Shown here: positions 11,222 through 51,951 of the stretch, in pieces | Layout of the letters: the number at the start of each line of letters is the position of its first letter | Position numbering within the stretch: position 1 is the stretch's first letter | Assembly: GCF_010365805.1 (NCBI RefSeq) | Contig: NZ_CP048386.1 | Coordinates: forward strand, 248,001 to 312,000 | DNA: 64,000 nt | Source: Spiroplasma sp. BIUS-1 | GTDB taxonomy: Bacteria > Bacillota_I > Bacilli_A > Mycoplasmatales > Mycoplasmataceae | Reading direction: 5' to 3' | The notes under the pieces: model-generated | Database searches by the model: none | Told to the model about the DNA's origin: nothing | Seen by the model: the letters and a program-made list of their open reading frames with translations, nothing else | Translations under genes and position numbers: made by a program

Positions 11222-11270
11222 GAATAACAAAAAAATGTAAACCAAAAAAAGGTTTATAAAAATTTGTTAG

Positions 11271-11384
11271 GTATTTTCTCTCATCCGGACTTTACCGTCG
11301 GTTTCAGAATTTCACTGAATCATGCTCTTTCGAGCTCATAGACTTTCACTATCGGTAAGGAATCACACCTTGCCCCGAAAATAC
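11271..11384 (-). promoter_or_regulatory. FMN riboswitch (RFN element)
   Basis: On the minus strand the order of conserved blocks is CGGGGCAAGGTG, ATTCC-ACCGA, AGTGAAAGTC, a variable arm with a GAAA-type loop, GATTCAGTGAAATTCTGAAACCGACGGT, and AAGTCCGGATG, which together match the RFN consensus. The closing P1 stem is perfect over eight pairs (11271-11278 with 11377-11384). Binding of FMN should favour the downstream terminator and switch off the riboflavin transporter gene. Confidence 0.97.
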
Positions 11385-11512
11385 TCACAAATTTATTATA
11401 AACTAACAGATGAAAAATTAATATAACCTAATTTATAAAAATTATAATTTATATTTATAATTTTTATAAATTGATATATAATATTTTTGAGCAAATAAAT
11501 AAGGAGAAAAAT

Positions 11513-19501: not shown

Positions 19502-19878
19502 GATTGAGATTAAATCTGAATCAACTGCTATATTTGAAAAATAATATAGAGGAAACTCCACGCTTGCACATTCTGAGATGAATGTAGTGATTGTGCTAGG
19601 GGAAAAAATAACTCTAGGTACCAATTTTAATTGGTAACGACTTAAGTATAGTCTAAGGGTACTTGTACCTATGATGAGCTTTTTAAAGTGCCACAGAGAC
19701 GATTAGCTAGAAATAGTGAAATGGAACGGGTAAACTCCACAAGCAAGAAACTCAAATTTTGGTAGAGGAGCTTAAGGGTGAGGAACTGAACAAGCCTTTG
19801 GGATCGCTTATGCGATAGATAGATAGTTGATGCACGAAAGTGTTACAAAACGTGGGTTATGAAGATTCAATCTCACTA
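19502..19878 (+). ncRNA. rnpB: RNase P RNA, Bacillus (B) type
   Basis: The 5' end (from 19502) and 3' end pair in a P1 helix (19505-19517 with 19863-19875). Conserved blocks visible are GAGGAAA near 19549, a CACAGAGACGA block near 19691 (cf. ACAGAAA), AAATGGAACGGGTAAACTCC near 19719, and GTGGGTTATG near 19853. Length about 377 nt fits mollicute RNase P RNA. A probable -10 (tataaa) lies at 19491-19496. It is the catalytic subunit that matures tRNA 5' ends. Confidence 0.95.
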
Positions 19879-37860: not shown

Positions 37861-38615
37861 TGGAAAACGTACTTTTATATTTTTCAATCAAATACAAAGG
37901 TGATTGAGACAAAATTTACCATGCTTTAGATACAAAAGAAAAGATTACACACAAAGATCTTGATGAAGTTTCTAAAAAAATAGATTCAAACTTTATAACT
38001 ATATTAAGTCCTTTATATCCAAGTTATTTAAAAAATACTCATAAACCACCATTTGTTATATTTTATAAAGGAGATATCACTTTACTTTCTAAATATCACA
38101 AAACAATAGCTTTGGTTGGCGGGATAGAGACAAATGAATATGGAATTAAAAATATAGATTTTTTAATGAATGATTTAAACTCTGAAAATGTTATATTTTC
38201 AACTATAGAAAATGAAGGTATAAACAATGAGGTTTTTGATAATGCTTTAAAAAATGAGTTTAATTTAATAAATGTAATTCAAGAACCTATGAAAGATTAT
38301 CTTAAAAAAACCATAGATCTTCCGGAAAGAAATAATCTACTTGTTATAACAGAAGTATATGAATCAGATAATAATATGGGTAATATGGTTCAAGAATATT
38401 CAAATAGAATGCTTTGTGGAATTTCTAAAGGAATAGTTTTCATTCATTTTAAAGCAAATGATTTAGTTAATAAGTTATTTTCCTTTGCAGTTAATGAAGG
38501 TAAAGAAATTTTTGCAATTCCAGACGAAACATTTTCTAAAAACTCAACAAATAAGCTAATTAAAAATGGTGCCAAGTTAGTTGAAAATGCAAAAGATATA
38601 CTAAATGAAATTTAA
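37860..38615 (+). CDS. Degenerate DprA-like DNA processing protein
   Basis: 251 residues. DprA loads RecA onto incoming single-stranded DNA in transformation. Similarity is clear in the middle and end: ILSPLYPSYLKNTHKPPFVIFYKGDI, IALVGGIETNEYG (cf. AIVGTRKPTxYG), and the C-terminal block QEYSNRMLCGISKGIVFI...KEIFAIPD (cf. RNRIIAGLS...VFAVPG). The family's SGLAxGIDxxAH element is reduced to a diverged STIENEGINNEVFDNAL, so the nucleotide/DNA pocket is probably altered. The N-terminal SAM-like domain is short. A TGA Trp is at residue 16. Likely a decayed or repurposed copy. Confidence 0.78.
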
Positions 38616-38618
38616 TAA

Positions 38619-38627
38619 TGATATAAT
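38619..38627 (+). promoter_or_regulatory. Extended -10 promoter of the 38.6-kb RNA
   Basis: TGATATAAT, a perfect extended -10 placed just after the dprA stop codon and a few bases before the first hairpin of the structured RNA. Confidence 0.65.
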
Positions 38628-38631
38628 GAGT

Positions 38632-38761
38632 TTGTGATAGAGATATCACACTTGTAAGGCGAAAGCCAAAACTAAGTATAAATTAAACTAATCATTTTAT
38701 TCCCGACACACAAATGATAAGAGTAATTTTAATTTAAGAGAGATTTTATCTCTCTTTTTTT
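38632..38761 (+). ncRNA. Structured small RNA or riboswitch-like leader, unidentified
   Basis: About 130 nt with its own promoter and terminator. It contains a 7-bp hairpin with a GAGA loop (38633-38650), a 3-bp GC hairpin with a GAAA loop (38658-38667), and a long imperfect stem (38679-38697 paired with 38712-38736). The apical loop of that stem contains cccgacacac and could pair with the 5' tttgtg segment. It ends in a strong terminator. It has no open frame of note. None of the RNAs I know (SRP RNA, tmRNA, RNase P, T-box, purine, preQ1, FMN) fits. It could be a free small RNA or an attenuator ahead of the ABC exporter gene. Confidence 0.6.
38737..38761 (+). terminator. Terminator of the structured RNA
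   Basis: Stem agagaga/tctctct with a short loop and a T run. Confidence 0.9.
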
Positions 38762-38771
38762 GTTTTTGATG

Positions 38772-38777
38772 TATAAT
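38772..38777 (+). promoter_or_regulatory. -10 element of the ABC exporter gene
   Basis: tataat 34 bases before ATG 38811, inside T-rich sequence just after the terminator. No clear -35 element is seen. Confidence 0.55.
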
Positions 38778-38810: not shown

Positions 38811-40805
38811 ATGGCAGAAAATATTAAATTGGACAGTACCCAAGAGGTTAATGCCCAAAATGAAAACAAAAATATCAAACCTGAATTTAAAACAAAAAGA
38901 AGTGGAAAATCATTCTTTGCAATAATTTTCCATTATATAAAAAGACACCCATTTTTAGGGGTTTTCTTAGTGCTACTTACACTAGCTTCATCAGTAACAA
39001 GTGTTTTAAGTCCTAAAATTATTGAAAATATTATGACAGTTTTAACTGCTCCAACAATTTTGGCATCAATACTTGGAAATAAATGACAAGATAGTCCTAT
39101 TGATAAAATCAACGAAGCATTATCAGCAACACACCAACAAAAAGGTACCATGCTTATTACAGCTCATGGTGATGCTGGAAATTATCATTTCACAACAAAT
39201 CTTTTTGGATTTGATTTGCAATGACAACATTGAATTTATGTTCAATTAGGTTTATTTGCAGCTTTAGCAATATTCACTTTTGCTTCTAACTTTATAGCTG
39301 GAATTATGGGTAAAAATATTGAAATTGAGCTAAGAAATAAAGCTCTTGAAAGATTAGTAAAACAAGATATGAGTTACTACTCTGACAAAAAAATTGGAGA
39401 AATTTTAACAAAAATAGTTTCTGATACTCAAATAGTAGGTGACCAAGCTCAACAAGTTCCTGTAACTATGATGAGTGCTGCATTTACTTTCTTTGGAGCA
39501 TTAATTATGATGTTTACAATTAATACTTACTTAACTGTTGTTGTAATTATTACAATGGCAATAATTGTTACATCAATTTTCTCAACTTTTGGAATAGTTA
39601 AAAAAGCTGCTTTCAAAACAAGAGATTCTATTACAGATATTAATGGAGATGTAACAGATAGAATTGCTACTGTTAGACTTATTAAAGCGTCTGGAACAGA
39701 AAACTATGAAACAGAAAGATTTAAAGAAATTCACAAAGATTACTTTAAAAAATCAAGTAGTTTAATTAAACTACAATCAACTGTTATTACAGTTTTAGTA
39801 GCTGGTGTAAGTTCAATTCAAATGATCATTGTTATTGCAGCTGCAATGAAATGACATAATGATCCAGGAACATTATCAGTTGTTTTAACAGCATTTATTT
39901 CATCTGTTGGAACAATGGTTGGTCCAATTATGCAAGTTGCAAGACTACAAGCAGGATTAATTATGGCATCTACATCAGCTGTTAGAATTAATGAAATTCT
40001 TGGAGCAAAATCAAGAATTAATCCTCATTATGATCCTGCTGAAGGTGTTCATATCGAAAGTATTGATAAAGATATTATCTTTAAAAATATTGAATTTAGA
40101 TATCCAGAAAAACCTGAAAAAGTAATTATTCCAGAATTTGATTTCACATTTGAACATGGAAAATCATATGCCTTTGTTGGTGAAACTGGAGCTGGTAAAT
40201 CAACTATTGCTAAATTATTATTAAGATTCTATGATCCTTTCAAAGGACAAATCTTAATTAATGGTGAACATGACTTAAGAGATGTAAACTTAGCAAGTTA
40301 CTTAGACAAAGTTGGGTATGTTGAACAAGAACCTCAAATCTTATTTGGTAATGTTTTAGATAACATTAAATATGGAAGATTTGAAGCAACTGACGAACAA
40401 GCAATTGAAGCTGCAAAATTAGCAGAATTACACGACTTAGTTATGACTTGACCAGAAGGATACAACACAGTTCTTGGTGAACGTGGATTTATGTTAAGTG
40501 GTGGCCAAAAACAAAGACTTGTTATTGCAAGAATGTTCTTAAAAGATCCACAATTATTAATATTAGATGAAGCAACAAGTGCTTTAGATAATATTGTTGA
40601 AAAAGAAATTCAATCAAAATTAGATAGCTTAATGAAAGGTAGAACTACAGTTACTATCGCTCACAGATTAAGTACTATTAAAAATGTTGATCAAATAATA
40701 GTTTTAGCTCCTGAAAAAGGAATAGCACAAGTTGGAACTTTCAATGAATTAAAAAACAAAGAAGGTCACTTCAAAAAACTATATGATGCCGGACTTATGG
40801 CTTAA
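38811..40805 (+). CDS. ABC transporter, fused transmembrane and ATP-binding domains (MdlB/BmrA type)
   Basis: 664 residues. The N-terminal 45 residues are hydrophilic; a membrane segment ([18 protein letters not shown]) and an unusually long soluble insertion of about 85 residues (NKWQDSP to FGFDLQWQ) follow before the next membrane helix. The rest is a standard six-helix exporter domain. The ATPase domain has GETGAGKST near residue 460, [21 protein letters not shown] and the His switch IAHRLST. It acts as a homodimer or heterodimer; the substrate is unknown (lipid, drug or peptide). ATG 38811 follows aaagagtga; a GTG at 38802 overlaps that site. TGA codons supply several Trp, mostly in the insertion. 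Confidence 0.93.
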
Positions 40806-51020: not shown

Positions 51021-51097
51021 GCCCACGTAGCTCAGTAGGATAGAGCATGCGCCTTCTAAGCGTAGGGTCAGAAGTTCGAATCTTCTCGTGGGCGCCA
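51021..51097 (+). tRNA. tRNA-Arg (anticodon UCU)
   Basis: 77 nt including the encoded CCA. The acceptor stem GCCCACG/CGTGGGC is perfect. The D arm (ctcagtaggatagag), a 5-bp anticodon stem (tgcgc/gcgta) enclosing the loop cttctaa with anticodon TCT, and a T arm (gaagttcgaatcttc) are all present. It reads AGA/AGG, the main Arg codons here. Confidence 0.97.
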
Positions 51098-51135: not shown

Positions 51136-51180
51136 ATTTTTTTGTAAAATATTGAAGTGACAGTCGGGAGATGAAAGAAA

Positions 51181-51951
51181 ATGAAATTTAGATATAATGA
51201 ATCAGTTTCAAAAAATAAGAAATACGATATAGTTTCAAAACATTACATAAATTACTATACTGATCCAACAAATATAGAGTTGGAATCAAGAAAAGTAGAT
51301 AATTTTGAAATTTTATCTTATAAAAATCACTCAAACTTAATTATTACAAAAGAATGAGATTATAAATTTGAAAACTATGATGTGATTATGGAAAATAAAA
51401 TTAGAAATATAATTAACTTTACAGAACATAAATATGACGGAAGAGAAATTTCTAATAAGTTAAAGTTTAAAGATAGTTATAAATTCATGGCATTAAATTT
51501 ATCTGAGATAGATAAGTTTAAAAACCATGATTTAGAAGAAGTAGAACTTGTAAGATTTAAAACAAAAGAGGAGTTAGAAAAATTTATAGAAATTGTAAAC
51601 TCAGTTTTTTTAGAAGAATTTAGTGATGCAAAAAAATTCTATGGTATTTTTGATGAATATAAAGATTTTAGTGAACTCTATCTATTAAGATATAAAGGTG
51701 AATTTGTTGGAACAGGTCACTTAACTCACTTTGATAATAAAACAACTGTAATTGATGATATTACAGTTCTGGATAGCGTTAGAGGAAAAGGTCTAGCTAC
51801 TTTTTTAATGAAGTCTTTATTGAATATTTGTTTTGAAAGAAACCAAGAAGAGGTATATTTATTTGGTAGTGAAATGGCTATAAATATTTATAAAAAACTT
51901 GGTTTTAAAGATGAAGATTTCTGAATGGAACAATTAAAATTAGTTTATTAA
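51181..51951 (+). CDS. GNAT family N-acetyltransferase with an N-terminal extension
   Basis: 256 residues. The C-terminal 120 residues form a GNAT domain: GEFVGTGHLTHFDNKTTVIDDITVLDSVRGKGLATFLMKSLL includes motif A (R-x-x-G-x-G/A), here RGKGLA. It is followed by NIYKKLGFKDEDFW as motif B. The N-terminal 110 residues are of unknown type. TGA Trp occurs near the N-terminus and at the end. Start ATG 51181 follows cgggag. The acetyl acceptor is unknown. Confidence 0.87.

Follow-up and report, generated by a model that had tools for sequence, protein, structure and literature searches.

The spacer between dprA and the gene of an ABC exporter, in the 64,000-nucleotide stretch of Spiroplasma sp. BIUS-1 DNA analysed here (the window), has the appearance of a structured RNA, and it raises the question of whether that RNA is a free regulator, and of what, or the leader of the gene that follows it. 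A first-pass annotation of the window put forward both readings. We conclude that the RNA belongs to a real and previously uncatalogued family of a known functional kind and that, as far as comparison of genomes can tell, it is probably a switch that turns down lipoprotein and transporter genes.

An RNA gene with its own promoter and terminator

The genes around the locus are an ssb-like gene, dprA (PF02481; last base 38615) and the gene of an MsbA-type ABC exporter (38811-40805), and TGA is read as tryptophan in the genes that flank the RNA. The RNA gene lies between the latter two and its features are collected in Table 1. The -10 hexamer is TATAAT in 19 of the 20 orthologs described below and TATATT in the other, and the gap between it and the G that opens hairpin P1 is 6 nt in all 21 copies of the RNA. 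No canonical -35/-10 pair is found at the locus, so that the predicted promoter consists of the extended -10 element alone. The commonest arrangement of mapped Mollicutes promoters is a TAWAAT -10 element with a TRTG extension, a 6-nt spacer and a start at G or A (PMC5138195). Since the 6-nt spacing is constant and matches that pattern, the 5' end of the RNA is most likely G38634, at P1.

The terminator is the sole terminator-like site within 400 bases (one found, 0.1 expected). In genomes of the distant group the terminators are unrelated in sequence (for example, GGAGCACTTCGAGTGCTC, AACTGGCGTAAGCCAGTT and AATAGATGCTTGCATCTATT) while hairpin and T run are kept; this is the pattern left by selection on termination alone. 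The predicted RNA lengths of the 20 orthologs fall between 114 and 134 nt. Any coding frame is broken by 1- and 2-base insertions and deletions in the core alignment of the 20 genomes. The extended -10 element, the strong terminator and the absence of a coding frame, all of them noted in the first-pass annotation, are thus found again, the first with hexamer and spacing conserved among orthologs. A promoter of its own, an intrinsic terminator and no open frame, as predicted here, are what one looks for in a trans-acting small RNA (sRNA).

Table 1. Features of the RNA locus, in coordinates of the window
Feature	Position	Strand	Basis or remark
Extended -10 element TGaTATAAT (TGATATAAT)	38619-38627	+	Sequence; shortly after the dprA stop codon
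Predicted sRNA transcript, about 129 nt	about 38634-38762	+	Inferred from promoter spacing and terminator position; start at G38634, end in T run
Hairpin P1, GUGAUA-GAGA-UAUCAC	38634-38649	+	Covariation; extreme 5' end of the RNA
Hairpin P2, GGC-GAAA-GCC	38658-38667	+	Covariation
Hairpin P3, AUCAUUU/AAAUGAU, 14-nt loop	38691-38718 (38691-38697/38712-38718)	+	Covariation
Proposed seed, exposed loop UUUUAUUCCCGACAC	38695-38709	+	Predicted pairing with target ribosome-binding sites
Intrinsic terminator AAGAGAGAUUUUAUCUCUCUU and T run	38736-38762 (stem 38736-38756)	+	Hairpin and T run in every ortholog
Second TATAAT, likely own promoter of the ABC exporter gene	38772-38777	+	After the terminator in the window

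Three covarying hairpins and an invariant loop

The predicted folding energy of the 145-nt stretch is -30.0 kcal/mol (z = -3.0; one of 200 shuffles is as good). A DNA search finds the RNA in all 20 genomes of the source genus, at 75-100% identity, and covariation was tested on the alignment of these 20 orthologs. P1 has a double change from G-C to C-G in G006, G011 and G016 and a change from A-U to G-U in four genomes, with 100% of its cells paired. In P2, C-G becomes U-A in eight genomes and U-G in two. P3, likewise 100% paired, has a double change from C-G to U-A in G014 and a change from U-A to U-G in four genomes. Over the three hairpins together, 99.1% of cells are paired, the figure being 96.1% for shuffles and 26-51% for slid structures, and no column shuffle matches their covariation score. 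This comparison among relatives, proposed with the first-pass annotation, therefore yields double-sided changes in each hairpin. It bears out the GAGA-loop hairpin (originally placed at 38633-38650) and the GAAA-loop hairpin; the long imperfect stem that was described beyond them is present, with conservation limited to the inner 7 bp that we call P3. The annotation also suggested that the apical loop could pair back to the 5' tttgtg. That pseudoknot (UUUGUG/CACAAA) gains nothing from the covariation test: it has no double-sided change, it is broken in genomes with a changed P1, and shuffles equal it. With the start at G38634, most of its 5' stretch would probably be untranscribed.

The apical loop of P3, UAUUCCCGACA, is conserved among the 20 genomes, and its core, UUUUAUUCCCGACA, C-rich and mostly unpaired, is invariant in every one of them. 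A sceptical reading of the sequence would be a conserved DNA element or chance, with no functional RNA at all; covariation in three helices, the constant promoter spacing, the independent replacement of terminators and the relocation of the RNA in G014 together with its promoter and terminator make this hardly credible.

Distribution of the family

A covariance model built from the 20 orthologs and searched over 298 genomes of the order retrieves those orthologs and one extra copy; its matches in other genera are at chance level, as are those in 40 other genomes of the family searched with laxer filters. The extra copy is a second, diverged one in G014 (G014:C1:1214129-1214217), with an identical P1, its own extended -10 element, P2, P3 and a shortened loop, AAUCCGACA. 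It adjoins lipoprotein genes. Five matches in genus g8, with ATTCCCGACAC or a close variant in common, fall within purB and were set aside as chance; another, in G021, was rejected as lying inside a trigger-factor-like coding sequence (both names were read from translations). A pattern scan of genome contigs gives six matches in unrelated phyla, none with covariance-model support. Rfam has no family that matches at its gathering score, as had been expected from motifs in the first-pass annotation, and a relaxed threshold brings up only chance-level microRNA and snoRNA matches.

Rfam does identify three other RNAs in the window: RNase P RNA (class B; 19513-19864), an FMN riboswitch (11269-11386) and a tRNA (51021-51094). 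In G033, of another genus, an intergenic stretch (L096, about 1460-1620) in which a closing stem GGGTGTT...AACACCC precedes a strong terminator has no Rfam match; it is possibly, judging by these features, another unlisted small RNA.

Genomic context and the exporter gene

The alternative role suggested for the RNA, to act in cis as attenuator or leader of the downstream ABC exporter gene, derives its appeal from the same-strand exporter gene that follows the RNA in 18 of the 20 genomes. A cis attenuator should always lie upstream of, and co-directional with, the gene that it regulates. That arrangement breaks down in G014, where gatB and a convergent TrkA-type gene flank the RNA, and in G015, where the RNA is followed by an NCS2 permease gene and there is no exporter (these names were read from translations). 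The terminators are, moreover, all full intrinsic terminators, and no alternative fold is conserved among them. In the window the terminator is followed by a second TATAAT; TGTATAATTTTTAAGA or a close variant also follows the terminator in several relatives. The two contexts and the second TATAAT exclude attenuation as the general function, and we regard it as extremely unlikely to be the RNA's role. In G010 the upstream neighbour is a transposase gene. The other suggestion, a free small RNA with its own promoter and terminator, agrees with its presence in 20 of 20 genomes, its covarying hairpins, constant promoter spacing and unrelated terminators.

Predicted target: an FtsX-type permease

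Start regions in 400-kb stretches of four genomes, with heuristic start codons, were ranked by their pairing with the loop. The combined four-genome ranking is no better than shuffles (83 of 160). At least part of the reason is that in two genomes the true orthologs fall beyond the stretches that were sampled, and that the permease scored in one was unrelated. In G000, the genome from which the window comes, the best loop match among 357 sampled genes is at the start of a gene for an FtsX-type permease of 1734 amino acids (about 1740 as a family). The site, GTCGGGAATGAAA / GTCGGGAATGAAAAAAATG, offers 13 consecutive pairs at -19.8 kcal/mol.

As a further test, copies of this permease were then gathered across the 20 genomes. 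Fourteen of them, in 13 genomes (not 13 independent tests, since orthologs share descent), have a start region whose pairing energy with the loop is between -10 and -20 kcal/mol, with a mean of -14.75; for other genes the value is about -6. Any C-rich loop will pair to some extent with G-rich ribosome-binding sites. Shuffled loops average -6.8 on the permease sites; none of 500 is as low as the real loop. When 16-nt windows are moved along the RNA, the loop segment alone is complementary in excess to the permease sites (-9 kcal/mol, about 0 elsewhere), and cofolding of the full RNA gives a mean of -10.2 as against -4.0 (sd 2.2) for other genes. GTCGG is retained in 10 of these 14 copies; the bases from there to the start codon vary and stay pairable, the variants GGGAAT, GGAGAAT, GGTGGAT and GGGGAAT all being able to pair with the loop. 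The site of G018 is weak (-10.1 for the permease, -5.6 for the lipoprotein gene described next). The G013 copy (G013:C1:417927-420413) looks broken, because it has five in-frame TAA codons and ATT at the position of the start.

The divergent lipoprotein gene

Next to the permease, and transcribed divergently from it, is the gene of a MOLPALP lipoprotein (TIGR04547). These divergent genes have a loop match of their own, AGTCGGGAAAATG or TCGGGGGATAAAATG and similar, mostly at -11 to -15.6 kcal/mol; it is missing from the lipoprotein gene of G013. In G000, the two lipoprotein genes beside the permease rank third and fifth of 357, so that three of the top five matches are three adjacent genes, an outcome produced by none of 500 shuffled loops. 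In G005, TCGG occurs within 25 nt upstream of the start in only two of 396 genes, those of the lipoprotein and the permease. The site is selective, being absent from paralogous permeases and from most of the other MOLPALP lipoproteins. A conserved seed, predicted to be unpaired, is thus complementary, beyond chance and in several genomes, to distant ribosome-binding sites, as would be expected of a trans-acting sRNA.

The shared GTCGGG before both genes might instead be a protein site or an unusual variant of the Shine-Dalgarno sequence, its match to the loop being a coincidence. The GGGA or GGAG part does overlap the Shine-Dalgarno position, and a motif in common would be expected under any regulator shared by the two functionally linked genes. 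However, the 3' end of 16S rRNA has no complement to the GTC extension, the match extends over 8-14 bp and tolerates changes that preserve pairing, and 0 of 500 shuffled loops do as well; we consider this explanation very unlikely.

Other candidate targets

The pair does not account for the whole distribution of the RNA. Five genomes (G006, G010, G011, G014 and G016) have the RNA and lack the gene pair, which means that the RNA has further targets or that pairing explains only part of its role; in G007 and G012 the pair is present and the site is absent from both genes. In G011 and G016 another FtsX-like permease carries GTCGGGAAATG / GTTGGGAGATT, a hint of different targets in these two genomes. 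For G014, 320 kb of sequence gave no convincing target for either the main loop or the loop of the second copy.

Evidence for a wider set of targets is mixed. Nine of the best 20 matches are lipoproteins, compared with 2.9 and 4.0 (one of 120 shuffles in each case); the mean rank of lipoproteins as a class is not enriched, which makes a general lipoprotein regulon only a hint. The exact 8-mer TCGGGAAT shows no genome-wide excess over the reversed pattern, and the other GTCGGGRA sites are for the most part internal to coding or tRNA genes. The second-best loop match among the sampled genes of G000 is GTCGGGAGATGAAA / AGTCGGGAGATGAAAG (window 51162-51180), before the start of a GNAT acetyltransferase gene (51181-51951). 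It is present in the window's genome only and absent from the orthologs, and is therefore either chance or lineage-specific.

Several further sites were noticed. An ABC ATPase gene that starts after GAAAGTCGGGGAATAGAAAAATG or GGAAGTCGGGGAATAGAAAGATG (G017:C1:516806 and G002:C1:463396) is a possible target, as is a gene for a secreted-like protein with GTCGGGGATGGAATG upstream of its start (G000:C1:633247). A perfect 10-nt complement of the loop, TGTCGGGAAT, lies inside what seems to be the same coding gene in two genomes (G006:C1:592225 and G016:C1:593509) and may be due to codon chance.

A proposed mode of action

We think it likely that the RNA is a trans-acting, base-pairing sRNA whose C-rich loop covers ribosome-binding sites and represses the lipoprotein/permease pair. 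Its transcription, its pairing in the cell and the repression that would result are what we infer from comparative analysis. The RNA would be transcribed from its own extended -10 promoter and ended at its own terminator, with P1 as a protective hairpin at its 5' end. The seed UUUUAUUCCCGACA would be displayed in the loop of P3, a weak, A+U-rich hairpin, and would pair over about 8-14 bp with GTCGGGAA / TCGGGGGATAAAA, a stretch that overlaps the ribosome-binding sites both of the permease and of the divergently transcribed MOLPALP-family lipoprotein gene or genes beside it. The P3 loop would most likely open onto, or kiss, these sites in both mRNAs, and pairing would cover about -20 to -4, blocking 30S loading, with coordinate repression of lipoprotein and permease as the outcome.

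A competing possibility is that this is a stand-alone structured RNA with its main job elsewhere (in binding a protein, or in acting on other mRNAs), the match to the lipoprotein/permease locus being secondary. The RNA is, after all, unchanged in the five genomes that lack the gene pair and is also kept in G007 and G012, and its loop and ACUUGUA linker vary less than a single target would explain; the different FtsX permease of G011 and G016 allows that targets may vary by clade. The complementarity, on the other hand, is confined to the loop, lies exactly at the translation start, and is found on both partners of one locus, so that we judge a main job elsewhere unlikely. For the preferred reading, repression by the loop, a more specific version has somewhat better than even chances in our estimation: a new RNA family that couples synthesis of the lipoprotein and of the divergent giant FtsX permease through one loop, and that, in sister clades without the pair, turns to other permeases or lipoproteins as targets.

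Relation to known small RNAs

RoxS and FsrA use C-rich regions against their mRNA targets, including Shine-Dalgarno sequences (PMC8216469). The RNA described here resembles RoxS/RsaE, FsrA and CsfG of Bacillus subtilis and Staphylococcus aureus in being a stand-alone sRNA with an unpaired UCCC-type region. It differs from them in having one C-rich loop rather than several, in its predicted targets (a lipoprotein and a permease, not central metabolism or iron genes), and in being confined to one Mollicutes genus with no match in Rfam. The Rfam covariance model of RoxS/RsaE does not match it at the gathering or at a relaxed threshold; the UUCCC of its loop and its predicted target sites do provide a C-rich, Shine-Dalgarno-targeting region of the RoxS/RsaE type, which is a likeness of working and not of membership. 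To our knowledge, the sRNAs with such C-rich regions (RoxS/RsaE, FsrA and CsfG) belong to bacteria that have no known RNA hub protein of the Hfq kind.

Closer to the source genus, trans-encoded intergenic sRNAs with predicted mRNA targets have been predicted in Mycoplasma hyopneumoniae and relatives (PMC5088518). The claim made here is of the same class; those candidates are species- or lineage-specific, whereas this RNA is genus-wide, with covariation, and its target sites are conserved too. The MCS4 RNA of Mycoplasma capricolum, about 125 nt long and abundant, has been likened to U6 snRNA. Compared by description, it is similar in length, in having its own promoter and terminator and in belonging to Mollicutes, but the covariance model of the present RNA matches nothing in any other genus of the family. 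Nor is this 6S RNA: instead of a long hairpin with a large central bubble there are three separate hairpins, P3 having 7 bp and a 14-nt apical loop, and there is no Rfam match. In Enterobacteria, MicA and RybB repress surface-protein mRNAs by covering the ribosome-binding site. The action proposed here is alike; the sequences are unrelated and the targets different.

The small regulatory RNAs of Mollicutes are, as far as we know, mostly species-specific predictions without comparatively supported targets. The target pair proposed here is, on comparative grounds, unusually well supported for a Mollicutes sRNA, and because RNA and predicted target sites are both conserved, the idea is directly testable by compensatory mutation. 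If it is true, C-rich-loop sRNAs would be known beyond Bacillus and Staphylococcus, and the genus, which belongs to a lineage with few transcription factors, would gain post-transcriptional control of a surface lipoprotein/permease locus.
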